Assembly (NCBI RefSeq): GCF_001613125.1
Contig: NZ_BDBT01000014.1
Location: 1 to 64,000, forward strand
DNA length: 64,000 nt
Direction: 5' to 3'
Source of the DNA: Nocardia shimofusensis NBRC 100134
GTDB lineage: Bacteria; Actinomycetota; Actinomycetes; Mycobacteriales; Mycobacteriaceae
Shown here: positions 53,902 through 61,762 of the stretch, one piece after another
Layout: each line of letters begins with the position of its first letter
Position numbering within the stretch: position 1 is the first letter of the stretch
The notes under the pieces: model-generated
Seen by the model: only the letters and a program-made list of their open reading frames with translations
Databases searched by the model: none
What the model was told of the DNA's origin: nothing
Position numbers and translations under genes: made by a program

Positions 53902-55248
53902 GTGATCACCGACTTCACCCGCGACAACGCCGCCCAGGCCCGCCTGCACGACCTCGTGCCCGGCGGCGCCCACACCTACGCCCGCGGCGCCGACCAATAC
54001 CCCGAAAACATGGCGCCGGTCCTCGTGCGCGGCCACGGCTGCCGCGTCACCGACTGCGACGGCAACGAATTCGTCGAATACGGCATGGGACTGCGCTCGG
54101 TCACCCTCGGCCACGGCTACCGGCCCGTCGTCGACGCCGTCACCGCCGCCATCGCCGACGGCGTCAACTTCTCCCGCCCCACCCTGCTCGAACTCACCGC
54201 CGCCGAAACGTTCCTGAACCTCGTCCCCGGCGCCGACATGGTGAAATTCGCCAAGAACGGCTCCGACACCACCACCGCCGCCGTCCGCCTGGCCCGCGCC
54301 GTCACCGGCCGAACCGCCATCGCCGTCTGCGACCAGCCGTTCTTCTCCGTCGACGACTGGTTCATCGGCACCACCGCCATGTCCGCGGGCATCCCGTCCC
54401 CACCCACCGTGCGCTTCGCCTACGGCGACCTCACCGCTCTCGACGCCGTGCTCACCGGCCACGACATCGCCTGCGTCGTCATGGAAGCCGCCACCGCGCT
54501 GCACGAACCACCCCCCGGTTACCTGGCCGGAGTGCGCGCACTGTGCGACCGGCACGGCGCACTGCTGATCTTCGACGAAATGATCACCGGCTACCGCTGG
54601 TCGGCGGGCGGCGCCCAGCAGATCTACGACATCACCCCCGACCTGTCGTGCTGGGGCAAAGCCATGGGCAACGGATTCCCCGTCTCCGCTCTCGCCGGCC
54701 GCCGCGACTACATGGAACTGGGCGGCCTGCGCACCGACGCCGAGCGCGTCTTCCTGCTCTCGACCACCCACGGCCCCGAAACCGGCTCCCTGGCCGCCTT
54801 CCTCGCCGTCGCCCACGCCTACACCACCACCGACCCCATCGGCCGGATGGAAGCCGCGGGTCGCTGCCTGCGCACCGGGTTCGAACAGATCACCGGCGAA
54901 CTCGGCATCGGCGACCATCTGCGCATCGCGGGCCGCCCCTCCTGCCTGATCTTCCAGACCCTCGACCCGCACGGACACCCGTCCCAGCCGTACCGCACCC
55001 TGTTCCTGCAGGAAATGTTGCGCCGCGGCGTCCTCGGGCAGTCGTTCGTCACCTCCGCCGCCCACACCGACACCGACATCGACCACACCCTCGAGGCCTG
55101 TCGCGCCGCCGCCGCGATCTACGCCCGCGCCCTCGACCAGGGCAGCGTCGACGGGCTGCTGAACGGTCGCCCCGTCGCGCCCGCCCTGCGCGCCCTCGCC
55201 GCACCCCGTCGCCTGGAAAACCGCGCGCCCGCGACGAGACCCGCATGA
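53902..55248 (+). CDS. Class III PLP-dependent aminotransferase (GSA-aminomutase-like)
   Basis: A 448-residue enzyme of the glutamate-1-semialdehyde aminomutase branch: VPGGAHTYARGADQYPENMAP, FAKNGSDTTTAAVRLARAVTG, D225 in IFDEMITGYRW and the PLP lysine K253 in SCWGKAMGNGFP. In polysaccharide loci such enzymes aminate keto sugars. Here it may make an amino sugar that the PIG-L enzyme later unmasks, but amination of another keto compound cannot be excluded. GTG start after an AAAGAGGAA element. Confidence 0.87.
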   Translation: MITDFTRDNAAQARLHDLVPGGAHTYARGADQYPENMAPVLVRGHGCRVTDCDGNEFVEYGMGLRSVTLGHGYRPVVDAVTAAIADGVNFSRPTLLELTAAETFLNLVPGADMVKFAKNGSDTTTAAVRLARAVTGRTAIAVCDQPFFSVDDWFIGTTAMSAGIPSPPTVRFAYGDLTALDAVLTGHDIACVVMEAATALHEPPPGYLAGVRALCDRHGALLIFDEMITGYRWSAGGAQQIYDITPDLSCWGKAMGNGFPVSALAGRRDYMELGGLRTDAERVFLLSTTHGPETGSLAAFLAVAHAYTTTDPIGRMEAAGRCLRTGFEQITGELGIGDHLRIAGRPSCLIFQTLDPHGHPSQPYRTLFLQEMLRRGVLGQSFVTSAAHTDTDIDHTLEACRAAAAIYARALDQGSVDGLLNGRPVAPALRALAAPRRLENRAPATRPA

Positions 55249-55369: not shown

Positions 55370-56497
55370 ATGACCGAGCCGCGCCTCGCGATCGTGCACG
55401 AACGCTTCACCGAATACGGCGGATCCGAAGCCGTGGTCGGCGAATTCGCGCGCACCTGGCCCCAGGCGCCGGTATTCGCGCCGCTGGTCGACGCCGCCCG
55501 CGCACCCGCCGTCGCCCACCCTCCGTGGGACACCATCACCGCCACCTGGCTCGACCGCGTACACGCCGCCACCGGCCGCCGCTCCCACGCGCCGCTGCTG
55601 CCGCTGGTGCCCCGAGCGCTGCGCGGACTGCCGCTGCGCGACGGCTACGACGCCGTCGTCGTCAGCCATCACTCCTTCGGCATCCAAGCGGCGCTGGCCA
55701 CCGACGCGCCCGTGATCGCCTACGTGCACAGCCCCGCCCGCTGGGCCTGGGACCCCGCCTTCCGCGCCCGCGAAGCCGGCGGACTCGCCGGACGCGGCGC
55801 ACTGGCGGCGCTGGGCGTTCTGGCCCGCCGCGCCGAACTCGCCGCCGCACCGCACCTGAGCGCCGTCGTGGCCAACTCCCATGCTGTCGCCGACCGCGTC
55901 CGCGACTGGTGGGGGCTGCCCGCCGAGGTGATCAATCCGCCCGTGCGCCTGGACCGTTTCGCTCCCGACCCGGCCCTCGCCCGCGAGGACTTCCTGCTCT
56001 TCGCCGGTCGCCTCGTCCCCTACAAACGCCCCGACCTGGCCATCCGCGCCGCCCAGCGCAGCGGCCGTCGTCTCGTCGTCGTCGGCGACGGACGCTACCG
56101 CCGCCACCTCGAAACCCTCGCGGGCCCGGAAACAACCTTCCTCGGCGCCGCACCCGATCACGTCCTCGTCGACATGTACCGCCGCTGCCATGCCCTGCTC
56201 ATGCCCGGCGTCGAAGATTTCGGCATCGTCCCCGTCGAAGCCATGGCCTGCGGCACGCCGGTGATCGCGGTGGGGGAGGGCGGCGCCCTGGACACCGTGC
56301 TGCCCGGCCTCAGCGGCGCACACGTCGCCCACGGCGCCGACGACGAGGTCGTGGAAGGATTCGCCGCGGTGCTCGCCGACCCCACGGCGACCGACCTCGA
56401 CCCCGCCGAGATCCGCGCCCACGCGCAAACCTTCGGCCCCGAGATGTTCCGGTCGCGGATGGCGCAGGTGGTCGACGGCGTCCTCGCCGCGCGCTGA
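55370..56497 (+). CDS. Family 4 glycosyltransferase 3 (mannosyltransferase-like)
   Basis: A 375-residue GT-B enzyme: VHERFTEYGGSEAVVGEFA, YVHSPARWAWDP, VVANSHAVADRVRDWWG, FAGRLVPYKRPDLAIRAAQRSGR and donor site PGVEDFGIVPVEAMACGTPVIAVG. The YVHSP segment and overall layout resemble WbdA/WbaZ-type mannosyltransferases. CAGGAGATC precedes the ATG. It closes the polysaccharide gene set, 121 bp after the aminotransferase. Confidence 0.9.
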   Translation: MTEPRLAIVHERFTEYGGSEAVVGEFARTWPQAPVFAPLVDAARAPAVAHPPWDTITATWLDRVHAATGRRSHAPLLPLVPRALRGLPLRDGYDAVVVSHHSFGIQAALATDAPVIAYVHSPARWAWDPAFRAREAGGLAGRGALAALGVLARRAELAAAPHLSAVVANSHAVADRVRDWWGLPAEVINPPVRLDRFAPDPALAREDFLLFAGRLVPYKRPDLAIRAAQRSGRRLVVVGDGRYRRHLETLAGPETTFLGAAPDHVLVDMYRRCHALLMPGVEDFGIVPVEAMACGTPVIAVGEGGALDTVLPGLSGAHVAHGADDEVVEGFAAVLADPTATDLDPAEIRAHAQTFGPEMFRSRMAQVVDGVLAAR

Positions 56498-56636
56498 CCG
56501 GATCGCGGCGTCTCGCGATCTCCGGCCCCGCCGGAGCCCGACCCGCCGCACCGGCACACGCTCACCCCGGCCACGGAGATCGCGACGGGTAGTTCCACTC
56601 ATGCCCGCCCGGACGCACCCCGGATACTCTCGCCCC

Positions 56637-57392
56637 ATGGTGCCGCAGCTGATCTTCGGGCTCCCCACGCACGGGTTCTTCGTGGCGCTCGGGGTGGCGG
56701 TCGCCGCCGTCGTCTTCGTCGCCGAATGCCGACGCCGCGGTGCGCTCGGTGAGGAATCGCTGGTCGCGGTCACCGGCGCGCTGGTCGGCGGAGCGATCGG
56801 GATGCGCCTGTCGAGCCTGGCCGAAACCCTCGACCCCTACGAAAGCTGGCTGTTCGGCGCGCGCAGCGTGCTCGGCGGACTGCTCGGCGCCTACCTCGGT
56901 GTGCTCGTGGCCAAACGGCTGATCGGCTACCGCGAACGCACCGGCGACCTGTTCGCCCCCGCCGTCGCCCTCGGCATGGCCGTCGGCCGCATCGGCTGCC
57001 ACCTCACCGAAGCGCCGGGACGCCCGACCGGACTGCCCTGGGGCGTGCACGCACCGGGCACGGTGCCCGAATGCCCCGGCTGCGCGAGCGGATCGGCTGT
57101 GCACCCCAGCTTCCTCTACGAAGTCGCCTTCCACCTGGCGGCGTTCTGCTGGCTGCGGTGGGCGCGCGAGAAGATCACCGCCCCAGGGGAACTGTTCACC
57201 CTCTACGTCGGCGCCTACGCCGTCTTCCGGTTCCTCGTCGAGTTCACCCGCGCCAACGACACCGTGTGGCTGGATCTGACCCGCCCGCAATGGTTCCTGA
57301 TCCCCGGGCTGATGCTCGTCGCGGTGCGCTGGAGCATCGGCTACCGGCGCGGCGCCTACGACTCGATTCTCGGACGAAAGGTCGCGACATGA
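56637..57392 (+). CDS. Lgt-like diacylglyceryl transferase homologue
   Basis: A 251-residue membrane protein with about seven hydrophobic segments. Hallmarks of prolipoprotein diacylglyceryl transferase are present: R118 in GRIGCHLTE with E125, HPSFLYE (156-162), and the last-helix set R198/E202/R205 (FRFLVEFTR). The FHGGLIG-type His is replaced by Leu (SVLGGLLG, about 78-84), and the GRxGN part lacks Asn, so it is a divergent paralogue, probably not the housekeeping Lgt. It may move a diacylglyceryl or related group from phosphatidylglycerol. Overlaps the next gene by 4 bp. Start uncertain (ATG 56601 also possible). Confidence 0.78.
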   Translation: MVPQLIFGLPTHGFFVALGVAVAAVVFVAECRRRGALGEESLVAVTGALVGGAIGMRLSSLAETLDPYESWLFGARSVLGGLLGAYLGVLVAKRLIGYRERTGDLFAPAVALGMAVGRIGCHLTEAPGRPTGLPWGVHAPGTVPECPGCASGSAVHPSFLYEVAFHLAAFCWLRWAREKITAPGELFTLYVGAYAVFRFLVEFTRANDTVWLDLTRPQWFLIPGLMLVAVRWSIGYRRGAYDSILGRKVAT

Positions 57393-57964
57393 CCACACCA
57401 CCGCCCCCATCCGACCCGCCGTACCAGGGACCGCCACCGCCGCAGGGCCCCCCGCCCGATCACGAGACGCGGCACCGAGAACCGCAGCATCCCGGGCAGC
57501 GGTATCCCTGGCAGCGGTATCAGCCCTACGCGGGACCGATACCGTATCCGGGAGCGCCGGATCCCGCGCCGAGACAAGGCGGTGTCGTCGCCGCTTTCGC
57601 AGTCGCCGGAGCCGCCCTGTTCATCGTCGTCAACACTCTGTTCGGGCTCTTCGTCTTCGTCACCGTGGCAAACGCCGCCGACACCGCCGACTCCTACCCG
57701 GTGATCCTCGGCGTCGCCGCCGCGTTCAGCGCGCTGGCCGCGTTCGGTGGCGGTGCGGTCCTCATCCTGCTGCGCAAACCCGTCACCAAAGGCCTCGGCC
57801 TGGGATTGATGATCGGCTGGGCGCTGGTCAGCATCTGCACCGCAGGCTTCTGCACCGGCATCAACCCCAACCTCTACAGCGCGCCCCCACCGCACGGCGC
57901 GGCCACCGAGAACCACACGATGGTCACCGAGAACATGGTCACCGAGAACGGAGCACACCCATGA
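57389..57964 (+). CDS. Proline-rich three-TM membrane protein
   Basis: A 191-residue protein. Residues 1 to about 62 are Pro/Gln/Tyr-rich and cytoplasmic-looking; then three membrane segments follow (VVAAFAVAGAALFIVVNTLFGLFVF, VILGVAAAFSALAAFGGGAVLILL, GLGLGLMIGWALVSICTAGFC). The architecture resembles DUF4190-type proteins of actinomycetes; function unknown. The C-terminal tail has a tandem MVTEN repeat from a 15-bp duplication near 57919-57948. It overlaps the Lgt-like and radical SAM genes by 4 bp each, so it is made with them and may scaffold the system. Confidence 0.75.
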   Translation: MTTPPPPSDPPYQGPPPPQGPPPDHETRHREPQHPGQRYPWQRYQPYAGPIPYPGAPDPAPRQGGVVAAFAVAGAALFIVVNTLFGLFVFVTVANAADTADSYPVILGVAAAFSALAAFGGGAVLILLRKPVTKGLGLGLMIGWALVSICTAGFCTGINPNLYSAPPPHGAATENHTMVTENMVTENGAHP

Positions 57965-59526
57965 GCACCGGGATGCCGCTACGCGGGGACCGTATCCTGC
58001 GCTACGTCACCGCGTTCTGCCCCGAATGCCACCACGAGAACCCGGACCGGCCGCTGCCCGAGGTCGCTCGTCTGTCGGGCTGGCTCGCCGAACGCGACGG
58101 CCGCGTGCACCTCGAACGCGGCTGTCCCCGCCACGGCATGATCCGCACCCTCTACGACGAGAATCCCGAAATCCTCACCTACCTCGAACGCTGGACCGCC
58201 CCCACCAAGGCCCACCTGCCCGACACACCCGGCAACTTCGACCCGGTGCCCTCGGCCTACCTGCGCGGGCTGCCGGAAATGCAGACCCAGCACACCTGCA
58301 TCCTGCTCGAAGACATCGTCGACACCTGCAACCTGCGCTGCCCCACCTGCTTCGCCGACTCCGCCCCCGACCTCGGCGGCGTCGTCGCCGTCGCCGACGT
58401 CCTCGCCAACGTCGATCAGCGCCTGGCCCGCGAGCACGGCACACTCGACGTTCTCATGCTCTCCGGCGGCGAACCCACCCTGCACCCGCAACTGCCCGAA
58501 CTGCTCGCCGAGCTCACCGCCCGCCCCATCACCCGAATCCTGATCAACACCAACGGCATTCGCATCGCCCGCGACGACGATCTGCTCGCCCTGATCGCCG
58601 AACACCGCGAACGCGTCGAGATCTACCTGCAGTTCGACGGCCTCAGCGCCGCGGCGTCGCGCCACCACCGTGGCGGCGACCTGCGCGCACTCAAAGCGTT
58701 AACCCTGCAACGCCTCTCCGAGCACGCCGTGTTCACCACCCTGGTGATGACCGCCGCCCTCGGCGTCAACGACGACGAGATCGGCGCCGTCGTCCAGACC
58801 GCGCTGGACACCCCGTTCGTCGGCGGGGTGTCCATCCAACCCCAATTCGGCTCCGGCCGATCCGGCGAGATCGACCCCACCGACCGGCTCACCCACACCG
58901 GCGTGCTGGCCCGCCTCGAGCCCCAAACCGGCGGCCGGGTCACCTGGCGTGACCTCACCGCCCTGCCCTGCTCCCACCCGCACTGCTGCTCGGTCGGCTA
59001 CCTGCTGCGCGACGACGCCGGAACCTGGCGTTCCCTGGTCGGGCTCATCGGCCACGACACCCTCGCGCAACGACTCGGACTGGTCGCCAACCGCATCGCC
59101 GACAGCGACATCCCCGCCGAACTGCGCCTGGCCGTACGCGAATCACTGCACGGACTGCTCTCCGAACAATCCTCCCTGTCCCACCCCGACATCGGGAAAC
59201 TGTGGCAGAACATCTGCCAGACCTGCGATCTGGGCATGTCCACCCTGCTCACCCTGGCCTCCTCGGCGCTGCCCGGCCGCAGAGCCCGGCTGCGCCGACT
59301 GCTCGGCGAACGCGTCGTGCGCATCACCGTCAAACCGTTCATGGACATCTCCACCATGATCGAAGAACGCCTCACCCAATGCTGCGTCCACGTCGGCACC
59401 CGCGCGGGCACAGCCGACCAATGCGCCCCGTTCTGCGCCGTACAGGCCTGGCCCGCCCTGTCCCGCCAACGTCTCTCCGCCGCCGCGCCCGCCGGACGCG
59501 CGCTGCTGCCGGTGCAGCCGCGATGA
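57961..59526 (+). CDS. Radical SAM protein of the Tes (tetraether synthase)/MJ0619-like family
   Basis: A 521-residue radical SAM enzyme. The SAM-cluster motif is C123-x3-C127-x2-C130 (TCNLRCPTC), followed by LSGGEPTLHP and INTNGIRI. Auxiliary cysteines are arranged as in the archaeal tetraether synthase family: FCPECH (C20, C23), GCPRHG (C55), HTC (C113), PCSHPHCCSVGYLL (C337, C342, C343), and a C-terminal FMDIST ... CCVH ... CAPFC. In archaea Tes couples two lipid tails through a carbon-carbon bond; MJ0619 homologues are methylases. So a reaction on an unactivated alkyl chain is plausible. Co-translated with an Lgt-like protein. Confidence 0.82.
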   Translation: MSTGMPLRGDRILRYVTAFCPECHHENPDRPLPEVARLSGWLAERDGRVHLERGCPRHGMIRTLYDENPEILTYLERWTAPTKAHLPDTPGNFDPVPSAYLRGLPEMQTQHTCILLEDIVDTCNLRCPTCFADSAPDLGGVVAVADVLANVDQRLAREHGTLDVLMLSGGEPTLHPQLPELLAELTARPITRILINTNGIRIARDDDLLALIAEHRERVEIYLQFDGLSAAASRHHRGGDLRALKALTLQRLSEHAVFTTLVMTAALGVNDDEIGAVVQTALDTPFVGGVSIQPQFGSGRSGEIDPTDRLTHTGVLARLEPQTGGRVTWRDLTALPCSHPHCCSVGYLLRDDAGTWRSLVGLIGHDTLAQRLGLVANRIADSDIPAELRLAVRESLHGLLSEQSSLSHPDIGKLWQNICQTCDLGMSTLLTLASSALPGRRARLRRLLGERVVRITVKPFMDISTMIEERLTQCCVHVGTRAGTADQCAPFCAVQAWPALSRQRLSAAAPAGRALLPVQPR

Positions 59527-59801
59527 GCGAAACCGGTGTCTACTACCAGGAAGCGGTCGCACGCCGATCGCCACCCGACCCGCTGAACCTGTGCGTCTAC
59601 GCCACTGTCGCCCTGCTCACCTGGCTGCTCGGCCCCATCGCGCTGACCGGTTTCGCCGCGCTCGGATTCCTCGCCTACTGGCGGGCCAGGCGGGCGGGGT
59701 TGCTGCGCAGCAAGTGCTGGTTGCGCGACACCCGGCTGGTACTGGCCTATCTGGCCGTCCTGAGTGTCGTCGGCGTGCTGGCCTCGACGCCACTGCTGTA
59801 G
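59523..59801 (+). CDS. Small two-TM membrane protein
   Basis: A 92-residue protein with two hydrophobic segments (LCVYATVALLTWLLGPIALTGFAALGFLAYW and LVLAYLAVLSVVGVLAST) joined by a basic loop (RARRAGLLRSKCWLRD). I do not recognise a family. It overlaps the radical SAM stop by 4 bp and closes the four-gene unit. It may anchor the radical SAM enzyme to the membrane. Confidence 0.72.
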   Translation: MSETGVYYQEAVARRSPPDPLNLCVYATVALLTWLLGPIALTGFAALGFLAYWRARRAGLLRSKCWLRDTRLVLAYLAVLSVVGVLASTPLL

Positions 59802-60292
59802 GTCCGCGCTGTCGCTACCGGTCCACCGGCCGTCGACGATAGGGAGCGACGGACCCGGCGCCCCGGCTACCGCGACCATCAGGACCCCGGCTACCGGAAC
59901 CGGTCGAGCCGACCGGGCCGGGGCGCGGTGCCTCCGAGCGCCGACTCGGGGAGTACCGGCGGCGAACGGCCGGTGTCGGGCGGCGAATACTCCGATGAAC
60001 TCTGCCCCGGCCGGTCACGCCGGACATCTCAGGTCTCACCGAGCCGAATCCGATCACAGAATGCGCCGCCAGCAGGGCATATGCTGTCGGCGCATCCGTC
60101 TCGGTGACCCGTGAAAGTTGTTCTCCGGCAACGATCGACGCTTCGAAGACCGCACACCGATGTCTCTTTCCGGGGGTAACGTGGCCCGGCGCGAAGAGGA
60201 AGACAGCCCGGCGCGAAGAGGGAAGTAGCCCGGCGCGAAGAGGGTGGCGGCGTCGTGAACGCCGGTCGAGTACGAAGTCCGAGGAGTTGCTG
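59802..60292. other. Intergenic region with tandem repeats
   Basis: About 490 bp with no convincing gene; frames here are Arg/Pro-rich shadows. It contains the three 22-bp repeats at 60184-60249 and ends in GAGGAG just before the GTG at 60293. Promoter and leader of the following gene. Confidence 0.5.
60184..60249 (+). repeat. Three tandem 22-bp repeats with core GCCCGGCGCGAAGAGG
   Basis: The 16-bp core starts at 60184, 60206 and 60228, an exact 22-bp period (about two helical turns). The last six bases of each unit vary (AAGACA, GAAGTA, GTGGCG). They lie 44-109 bp upstream of the three-helix-bundle fusion gene and might be regulator half-sites or a replication-slippage product. Confidence 0.85.
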
Positions 60293-61762
60293 GTGCCTGT
60301 CGAAACAACCCGCGAAGAACAGGCTTTGCGCCGCTTGACCGACAGTCTCGTCGAGAGCTACGCCGGACAGCACCCGCCGGAACGAGTGCGCTCGGCTATC
60401 GGCGACGCGCGTGAGAAGTTCGACGGCACACCGGTGCGCGAGTTCGTGCCCGTCCTCATCGAACGCATCGCCCGTCGAGAACTCGACGGCCACGCCGAGC
60501 CCGAGGCGGCACGCGAACACCTCGCGACGCCGGTGCCGAACCCGCACCACAACGCGGTGGAAAGTGCCGCGGTGGAAAGTGCCGCGGTGGAGCATGTTTT
60601 CCCCGATGCAGGCAGCCGCGCCGGAACGCCGGGCCTGCGGCGCTTGCTGCCGATCGCCGCGACGTCGAGCCCGCGTCGCCTGTTGCCGATCGCCGCAGCG
60701 CTGGCCCTGGTCGCCATCGTGGTCGTCGCCGTGGTCGCCGTCGCCGGCCGCGAGCCCTCCGATGCCGCGGCGGCAGGCGGCACCACCGACCTGACCACCG
60801 TGCGCGGCGCGGTGGGCTCGGAGAAGGCGTCCTTCTTCGAAGACCCCCGCGTCGCCGAAGAACTGGCCCGCGACGGCCTGCGCGTCGAGATCGAACCGGC
60901 CGGCTCGCGCCAGATCGCCGACATGGATCTCACCGGCTACAGCTTCGCCTTCCCCTCCAGCGTCCCCGCCGCCGAACGCATCCTGCGCGCCCACGACATC
61001 AGCACCCGCTACACCCCGTTCGCCTCCCCGATGGCCATCGCCACCTTCACCCCCATCGCCGAGGTGCTCACCACCGCGGGCGTCATCCGCCCCGGCCCCG
61101 CCCCCACCTTCGACATGGCGCGCTATCTGGAACTGGCGCAACGCAATACCGAATGGACCCACCTGGCGGGCAACACCGCCTACCCGGTCCGCAAGAACAT
61201 CCTCGTCTCCACCACCGACCCCCGCACCTCCAACTCCGCGGCCATGTTCCTCGCCATCGCCGCGTTCGTCGCCAACGACAACGCCGTCGTCCAGGGCGCC
61301 GAAGCCCAGCAGCGGGTACTGCCGCTGCTGTCGCGGCTGTTCACCGGCCAGGGCTACGCCGAGAACTCCAGCGCGGGCACCTTCGGCGAATACCTGACCG
61401 CGGGCATGGGACCGGCCCCGCTGGTCCTGATCTACGAAGCCCAATTCGTCGAAGCGAAAGCGCAAGGCCGCATCACCCCCGACATGGTGCTGACCTACCC
61501 CACGCCCACGGTCCTGTCCACCCACACCGTCGTCCCCCTCGACGACGCGGGCGACCGGCTCGGCCGCCTGCTCACCGAGGACCCCGAACTCCAGCGTCTG
61601 GCCGCCGAACACGGCTTCCGCACTCGCGACACCGCCGCTTTCGCCGCGGTCGCCGCCGAGCACCGGGTTCCCGTGCCCGCCGAGGTCATCGATGTCGTCG
61701 ACACCCCCACCTACGAAACTCTCGAAGCGCTGCTCCAGGGAGTCATCACGGCGTACAACTGA
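60293..61762 (+). CDS. Three-helix-bundle domain/TM/solute-binding-like fusion protein
   Basis: A 489-residue protein. Residues 1-65 match the small three-helix-bundle dimerisation domain otherwise seen with arsenate reductases and on its own in mycobacteria (EEQALRRLTDSLVESY, VRSAIGDAREKF, PVREFVPVLIERIARREL). A linker with a 15-bp tandem repeat follows, then a membrane helix at about 131-151, then about 335 residues that look like an extracytoplasmic solute-binding-type domain (SFFEDPRVAEELARDGLRVEIEPAGS, YPTPTVLSTHTVVPL). A sensor or receptor tethered to the membrane is a reasonable reading. GTG 60293 with GAGGAG. Confidence 0.75.
   Translation: MPVETTREEQALRRLTDSLVESYAGQHPPERVRSAIGDAREKFDGTPVREFVPVLIERIARRELDGHAEPEAAREHLATPVPNPHHNAVESAAVESAAVEHVFPDAGSRAGTPGLRRLLPIAATSSPRRLLPIAAALALVAIVVVAVVAVAGREPSDAAAAGGTTDLTTVRGAVGSEKASFFEDPRVAEELARDGLRVEIEPAGSRQIADMDLTGYSFAFPSSVPAAERILRAHDISTRYTPFASPMAIATFTPIAEVLTTAGVIRPGPAPTFDMARYLELAQRNTEWTHLAGNTAYPVRKNILVSTTDPRTSNSAAMFLAIAAFVANDNAVVQGAEAQQRVLPLLSRLFTGQGYAENSSAGTFGEYLTAGMGPAPLVLIYEAQFVEAKAQGRITPDMVLTYPTPTVLSTHTVVPLDDAGDRLGRLLTEDPELQRLAAEHGFRTRDTAAFAAVAAEHRVPVPAEVIDVVDTPTYETLEALLQGVITAYN

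Follow-up and report, generated by a model that had tools for sequence, protein, structure and literature searches.

The window analysed here comprises the first 64,000 nucleotides of contig NZ_BDBT01000014.1 of Nocardia shimofusensis NBRC 100134, whose genome was searched as 6.33 Mb in 75 contigs. Four open reading frames (ORFs) lie on its + strand at positions 56637-59801. The first one (56637-57392) encodes a 251-aa paralogue of the diacylglyceryl transferase Lgt, and the second (57389-57964) a protein with a proline-rich N-terminus and three hydrophobic segments, designated P2, which is a putative acceptor protein. The third (57961-59526) encodes a radical S-adenosylmethionine (SAM) protein of 521 aa with the fold of the tetraether synthase Tes, designated rSAM, and the fourth (59523-59801) a small membrane protein of 92 aa with two hydrophobic segments, designated TM2, which is an optional partner. 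As a first-pass annotation of this DNA had described, each gene overlaps the next one by 4 bp, and all three junctions are ATGA; an alternative in-frame ATG is found upstream of the first start codon, at 56601. That annotation proposed a lipid-modification system made of an Lgt homologue and a Tes-type enzyme. The linkage and the lipid theme of the proposal hold, but the assignment of rSAM to Tes does not, for the reasons given below, and as a consequence the claim that lipid tails are joined through carbon-carbon bonds is unsupported.

Linkage and distribution of the cassette genes

The company kept by these genes was followed in a set of 86 loci (L numbers), made up of the window and 85 loci whose rSAM protein reaches at least 70% identity. 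The 80 named loci were the best 80 of at least 547 confirmed relatives and the set is thus biased to orthologues; it includes two pairs that probably come from the same genome (L025/L030 and L026/L035), and the loci of Nonomuraea, Microbispora and allied genera are not independent, a wider neighbourhood being common to them. Less biased samples were 60 genomes (G numbers), used for P2, and 246 genomes of the class, own genome included, used for the rSAM orthologue, the Lgt-like gene and their adjacency. In the latter sample the E values were below 1e-260 for an rSAM orthologue, up to 1e-45 for the Lgt-like gene and from 3e-46 to 1e-63 for a distant rSAM relative.

The Lgt-like gene stands beside the rSAM gene in 84 of the 86 loci, and in the two remaining ones (L046 and L103) the locus begins too close to the edge of its contig. 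The cassette genes are always on the same strand, although they follow at least two gene orders. Among the 246 class genomes, 17 carry the rSAM orthologue and nine a distant relative only. The Lgt-like gene is confined to the same 17 genomes and is adjacent to the rSAM gene in 17/17, whereas no Lgt-like gene was found within about 1.5 kb on either side of the distant relative in any of the nine other genomes. The Lgt paralogue and the Tes-fold radical SAM protein are therefore a co-directional pair, and no genome of the class sample has one without the other. These counts confirm that the linkage goes far beyond chance, and the pairing that the first-pass annotation had noticed in one genome is a conserved one. 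The distribution is patchy (17/246), and the cassette is known from Nocardia, Mycobacterium, Nonomuraea, Microbispora and others; among the matches listed, Nocardia species provide the best named ones for rSAM (82-84% identity). A further Lgt is encoded in all 16 other carriers, with more than 200 bits in 14 of them and 125 and 134 bits in G069 and G092.

P2 is a cassette-specific partner of this pair and TM2 a frequent one. P2 was found in 5 of the 60 genomes, own genome included, in one copy each, and all five are carriers of the cassette. TM2 occurs in 48 of the 86 loci, in every case after the rSAM gene. Beyond the class, four of 296 genomes of the phylum, all from other classes, carry the orthologue; three have the Lgt-like, rSAM and TM2 genes together and in the fourth these are split over two contigs. 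In the most distant one, G450, a short one-segment protein precedes the Lgt-like gene, and its last helix was judged by eye to be similar, with Gly-Ala-Cys. In the same genome (L162, 742-3441) near-identical repeats, each about 30 residues long, are inserted in frame between the radical SAM (RS) domain and the C-terminal domain of rSAM.

Genes beyond the four were considered as parts of the system and rejected. The flanking clusters shared most widely (28, 27 and 26 loci) come almost entirely from Nonomuraea, Microbispora and allied genera, with single members from Aldersonia and Nocardia.

Proteins encoded by the cassette

The rSAM protein contains the Radical_SAM domain and an HMPTM N-terminal zinc ribbon. 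Its two best NCBIfam scores were with TrsS (NF045646, 189.5 bits) and Tes (NF045702, 143.7 bits), both below their cut-offs (490 and 450, respectively). It does not place among the SPASM/MoaA families, as MoaA gave 36.1 bits, StsB 35.0 bits and the families other than Tes and TrsS up to 39.5 bits (25 of 42 listed). Of the two computational findings that would have refuted the first-pass annotation, a SPASM placement of rSAM and a lack of conserved linkage, neither was obtained. The best sequence match in PDB is Tes/GDGT-MAS (7TOL, E 4.5e-32). In addition, the predicted structure followed the Tes fold from end to end (7TOM, Z 29.5, rmsd 3.6, 451 residues), the next being MoaA with Z 17.2; other radical SAM structures came at lower Z, and rank or absence in that comparison was not taken as exclusion. 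The mean confidence of the model (pLDDT) was 70.5, with values below 50 at residues 103-139 and 374-404 among others. PADLOC gave only a generic viperin-type radical SAM match (34.9 bits), and rSAM was rejected as a defence gene.

The first-pass annotation had recognised in rSAM the cysteine layout of Tes, and this proved correct in three of its parts. The rubredoxin-like site (C20/C23/C55/H58) and the RS cluster (C123/C127/C130) are kept, and so are the cysteines of the C-terminal cluster (C342, C474, C475 and C492), Tes Cys338, 455 and 456 being present in 86/86 loci and Cys470 in 85/86; the role of these C-terminal cysteines as cluster ligands is presumed. However, the ligands of the N-terminal [4Fe-4S] cluster of Tes (C73, C77, C80 and a His) are gone in all 86 loci, with no Cys at those positions and Gln for His, and no Cys occurs anywhere in residues 84-112 of these proteins. 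Likewise, Tes Met439 is replaced by Lys and Tyr459 by Val in 86/86. Because of these losses rSAM should not be called Tes, and we file it as a new separate subfamily beside Tes and TrsS.

Nine distant actinomycete relatives of rSAM keep the N-terminal cluster and carry Gln and Glu, respectively, at the positions of Met439 and Tyr459, so at least three sub-lineages can be distinguished. In a tree of 12 orthologues, the nine distant relatives and Methanocaldococcus jannaschii Tes, the orthologues stood apart on a long branch of their own (1.49 substitutions per site); the tree contained neither Mss, an archaeal series nor an outgroup, and no origin was read from it. One of the distant Tes/TrsS-like relatives, in genome G019 (L009/L028), is found near genes for a methyltransferase, a thioredoxin-like lipoprotein, a DsbD-like protein and a multicopper-oxidase-like protein, perhaps as part of a separate thiol/metal system.

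The product of the first gene had been described as an Lgt homologue, and it passes Pfam LGT (PF01790) with 107.5 bits over a cut-off of 24.9, while remaining below the cut-off of the Lgt equivalog TIGR00544 (66.7 vs 118.9 bits). Seven long helices are seen in its AlphaFold2 model (pLDDT 83), and Escherichia coli Lgt (5AZB) was the sole PDB match with E up to 0.001. The counterparts of E. coli Arg143, Glu151, Glu202, Tyr235, Arg239, Glu243 and Arg246 are invariant in the 84 loci, the residues R118, E125, Y194, R198, E202 and R205 corresponding to Arg143, Glu151, Tyr235, Arg239, Glu243 and Arg246; H156-P-S, Y161 and E162 are kept as well. In E. coli Lgt, Glu151 and Arg143 bind phosphatidylglycerol, and mutants of R143, E151, R239, E243 and R246 are inactive (PMC4728403; partial text, as for all papers cited here). 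We file the protein as a new Lgt paralogue. It is 32% identical to the other Lgt of its own genome, which lies on another contig (L001; PF01790, E 2.1e-66).

Three positions of E. coli Lgt are altered in it. Asn146 of the signature motif is Cys (Cys121 here) and Tyr26 is His, each in 84/84 loci, and His103 is Leu in 80/84 (L79 here) and Ile in four. Mutants of Tyr26 and His103 are inactive in E. coli, and the His of the HGG motif is described as essential (PMC4728403). The loss of this His, reported in the first-pass annotation, is real. However, it is weak evidence, because the other Lgt of the own genome also lacks it, having Trp where the HGG motif of E. coli has its His. A CPGC pair (C146/C149) is found in the head loop, and the CxxC is kept in 80/84 loci. 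The four loci missing it (L097, L104, L106 and L108) each have a divergent P2, which hints at a contact between the Lgt-like protein and P2; relatedness may account for this pattern, and the pair is present in four other loci with a divergent P2 (L027, L100, L102 and L105).

P2 reached no Pfam or NCBIfam family over its cut-off, and a Pfam search with 23 members gave weak and mixed matches, none of which was accepted. Its proline-rich N-terminus and three hydrophobic segments had been seen before, but it had gone unnoticed that the last helix carries a near-invariant Gly-X-Cys at its outer end. This helix is the conserved part (GLGLMIGWALVSICTAGFCTGINPNLY, followed by a lineage-specific tail), with the family form GxGLMIGWALxSIxTAGFCTGxNPxxY, and many members end a few residues later. 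Only the Gly and the Cys of Gly-X-Cys are invariant among 23/23 aligned members (alignment A6, which includes three weak or by-eye finds: L100, L105 and L106). The Gly precedes the Cys by two positions in 76/76 P2 segments caught with a search pattern that required the Cys, not the Gly. In the window the motif is Gly153-Phe154-Cys155 (57845-57853, + strand). The loop between the second and third hydrophobic segments contains on average 2.6 Lys/Arg versus 0.1 after the Cys; since the positive charge lies in this loop and almost none beyond the Cys, this residue is predicted on the outer side of the membrane, where Lgt works. P2 is in consequence of these features the likely acceptor.

A hidden Markov model (HMM) built from the pattern-caught sequences found P2 in 78 of the 86 loci. 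Two of the eight misses (L057 and L103) are at contig edges, and by eye the other six have another short transmembrane protein within the cassette or next to it. Nine loci contain a tandem pair of P2-type genes, either before the Lgt-like gene (six Nonomuraea loci) or between the Lgt-like and rSAM genes (three mycobacterial loci); these are L040, L045, L056, L060, L063, L068, L070, L073 and L081, and one copy is the weaker match in the mycobacterial loci. The C-terminal extension of P2 in the own genome has repeated VTEN words (57905-57964), and L023 carries a shorter form. A conserved TEN-repeat tail, which would suggest a peptide substrate, was rejected, as a pattern search found the VTEN/TEN tail in the window and at no other locus examined.

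TM2 has invariant C24 and C65 in an alignment of 12 diverse members and the motif SxCxLxDTRLVLxYL. Among the named loci it is present in 9/9 of Nocardia and 15/15 of Nonomuraea, compared with 2/18 of Mycobacterium and 1/12 of Mycolicibacterium.

Upstream of the cassette, the window encodes an aminotransferase (53902-55248) over the cut-off of NF004856 (PRK06209, glutamate-1-semialdehyde 2,1-aminomutase; 664.7 vs 486 bits), directly followed by a glycosyltransferase (55370-56497), perhaps as part of a surface-sugar region. Downstream, at 60104-61762, lies the gene of a protein with the N-terminal three-helix dimerisation domain NF046112 (61 bits, cut-off 25). Its homologues are found near the cassette in several Nocardia-like loci (L023-L025 and L029-L033), and none was seen in the other fetched loci.

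Proposed function and rival explanations

Our preferred, still tentative interpretation, to which we give a probability of roughly 0.4, is that the cassette is a dedicated lipidation module of actinomycetes; as such we file it as not described in the literature searched and with putative chemistry. The Lgt-like enzyme would transfer diacylglyceryl from phosphatidylglycerol to the thiol of Cys155 in the Gly-X-Cys of P2, an acceptor without a lipobox. The cytosolic rSAM, docked at the inner face of the membrane perhaps through TM2, would remove a hydrogen atom from an unactivated tail carbon of a lipid and, in the way suggested for Tes, create a new bond there by means of its C-terminal Fe-S cluster. 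Its substrate would be either the lipid bound to P2 or a nearby phospholipid, and P2 would end up with a lipid anchor of unusual, chemically altered structure. In a more specific version, which we think improbable, S-diacylglycerylation of the C-terminal, non-lipobox site by the Lgt paralogue would be followed by the joining of the anchor tail to an inner-leaflet lipid by rSAM, giving a covalent membrane-spanning anchor. The losses in rSAM leave a Tes-like tail chemistry possible, because Tes retains activity in its M439A and Y459F/L variants and reportedly works by way of a cluster sulfur, for which the C-terminal cluster has been proposed (PMC9433317).

Several observations weigh against a lipidation module. 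The active site of rSAM would be cytosolic and the chemistry of Lgt takes place outside, so a shared substrate needs explaining; sites on opposite sides would nevertheless be natural if rSAM acts on tail ends at the mid-plane of the membrane, as Tes does. With Cys at Asn146, His at Tyr26 and Leu at His103, the transfer activity of the Lgt-like protein could be lost or changed. On the side of rSAM, the N-terminal cluster ligands, Met439 and Tyr459 are lost, the higher score with TrsS leaves room for a non-lipid radical reaction, and the RS-cluster loop and some stretches of the C-terminal region are modelled with low confidence. The Cys of P2 is lipobox-like by its place and not by its sequence, with F, I, L, Y or W at -1, and hydropathy and charge are the only basis of the membrane topology. 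As regards distribution, a sixth carrier in the 60-genome sample (G039) has at the place of P2 a divergent protein with the Cys and without the Gly (L027), and the P2 profile matched none of the four carriers from other classes, a P2-like protein being seen by eye in one of the three with an unsplit cassette. TM2 is scarce in mycobacterial loci. Finally, the Lgt-like match of G187 contains one TGA, although the adjacency search gave there a single unbroken match.

Genes of actinomycetes are often tightly packed with short overlaps, which speaks for a chance vicinity or hitch-hiking of unrelated genes, as does the wider neighbourhood common to the loci of Nonomuraea, Microbispora and allied genera. 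Such an explanation is nevertheless hardly credible: the two genes share the same 17 genomes out of 246 and are adjacent in each, against none of the nine distant relatives, their company is constant while the gene order varies, and the shared flanking families are nearly absent from Nocardia and mycobacterial loci. A second explanation is that rSAM modifies the polypeptide of P2, in the manner of ribosomally synthesized and post-translationally modified peptides (RiPPs) or other modified proteins, and that the Lgt-like enzyme then lipidates the product, as lipidated RiPPs use the lipoprotein pathway. P2 does look like a substrate, being found in carriers only, variable outside its C-terminal helix and doubled in 9/86 loci, and RiPP-lipoprotein hybrids are a precedent for peptide modification plus lipidation (PMC12636315). 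However, its conserved part is a membrane helix whose end is predicted outside, away from a cytosolic enzyme; rSAM, moreover, does not group by score with the SPASM/MoaA families and is far better fitted by Tes in fold, and no leader-binding domain turned up in the Pfam and NCBIfam scans. We consider this reading unlikely.

The cysteines of the cassette fit another possibility, that rSAM performs a TrsS-like, non-lipid chemistry on thiols or metals and that the Lgt-like protein is a membrane thiol enzyme or anchor without diacylglyceryl transfer. It would account for the order of the scores (TrsS 189.5 vs Tes 143.7 bits), for the Cys at Asn146 in 84/84 loci, the CxxC in 80/84 and the two cysteines of TM2 in 12/12, and for the neighbours of the distant relative L009, recognised by reading translations (methyltransferase, thioredoxin-like, DsbD-like and multicopper-oxidase-like). 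Against it, the Arg/Glu network that binds phosphatidylglycerol is kept in 84/84 loci, the nine distant relatives keep the N-terminal cluster and the six distant relatives that were scored fit TrsS and Tes better than rSAM does, and those examined have no Lgt-like neighbour; this makes it rather unlikely. The cassette could also be a bona fide operon for membrane-spanning lipids, with rSAM acting, like Tes and Mss, as a bulk coupler of phospholipid tails and the Lgt-like protein shifting its products or linking them to proteins. The fold and the C-terminal cluster cysteines are common to rSAM and Tes, the Tes variants mentioned above still work (M439A, Y459F/L; PMC9433317), and bacterial Tes homologues have been proposed to make such lipids (PMC8941075). 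However, rSAM scores below the Tes cut-off, has lost the N-terminal cluster and has replaced Met439 and Tyr459, which are invariant in 1,000 archaeal homologues (PMC9433317); in addition, the partial descriptions of the Tes and Mss pathways contain no Lgt paralogue or P2-like protein, and an occurrence in 17/246 class genomes is patchy. We regard bulk synthesis as a poor fit and give it little credence.

If the lipidation module is real, the genera that carry it would have a second route of diacylglyceryl anchoring of proteins, at the C-terminus and without a lipobox, together with a radical modification of lipid tails. In any case this rSAM subfamily has a constant partner of well-understood chemistry, Lgt, and a candidate acceptor with one near-invariant cysteine, which makes the function of these enzymes a concrete experimental question.

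Comparison with known systems

Earlier work has noted bacterial homologues of Tes and suggested a role for them in membrane-spanning lipids (PMC8941075, PMC11868695), their reactions being only proposed in the text available (PMC9433317, PMC8941075), and Mss has been reported as a bacterial lipid coupler (PMC13274423). In the open-licence PMC literature, titles and abstract openings revealed no Lgt paralogue coupled to a radical SAM enzyme, and PMC7641849, examined for such a pairing in its partial text, proved unrelated.

As in Tes (MJ0619, GDGT-MAS, NF045702; 7TOL, 7TOM), rSAM has the same fold throughout, the rubredoxin-like CxxC...CxxH and RS CxxxCxxC motifs and the cysteines 338, 455, 456 and 470, and it keeps Gly145, Arg210, Gln268 and Arg275 (Tes numbering). 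Unlike Tes, to which it is 27% identical and whose NCBIfam cut-off it does not reach, it lacks the N-terminal [4Fe-4S] ligands, has Lys for Met439, Val for Tyr459 and Phe for Ser271, conserves cysteines 113, 337, 422 and 488, for which the aligned Tes positions have no Cys, and is linked to an Lgt paralogue. TrsS is its best-scoring curated family, yet far below the cut-off, and six distant actinomycete relatives score higher than rSAM (307-323 bits), also below it. TrsS is listed as a selenoprotein family (PMC13188914), and no functional description of it was found in the literature searched. The Lgt-like protein shares with Lgt (5AZB; L001) the fold and the set Arg143/Glu151/Glu202/Tyr235/Arg239/Glu243/Arg246, and differs in Asn146, Tyr26 and His103, in the CPGC of the head loop and in a score below the equivalog cut-off.

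Mss, the bacterial membrane-spanning lipid synthase, is reported to have a Tes-like catalytic architecture (PMC13274423), a likeness to rSAM drawn from its description and not from sequence; in contrast with the cassette, no Lgt partner is mentioned for it in the partial text of that paper. Finally, the MNIO-modified diacylglyceryl RiPPs (DAG-RiPPs) also combine a post-translational modification with diacylglyceryl transfer (PMC12636315). The term "radical SAM" is absent from the partial text of that paper and, unlike the proteins of the cassette, DAG-RiPPs use the general lipoprotein pathway and an N-terminal lipobox.

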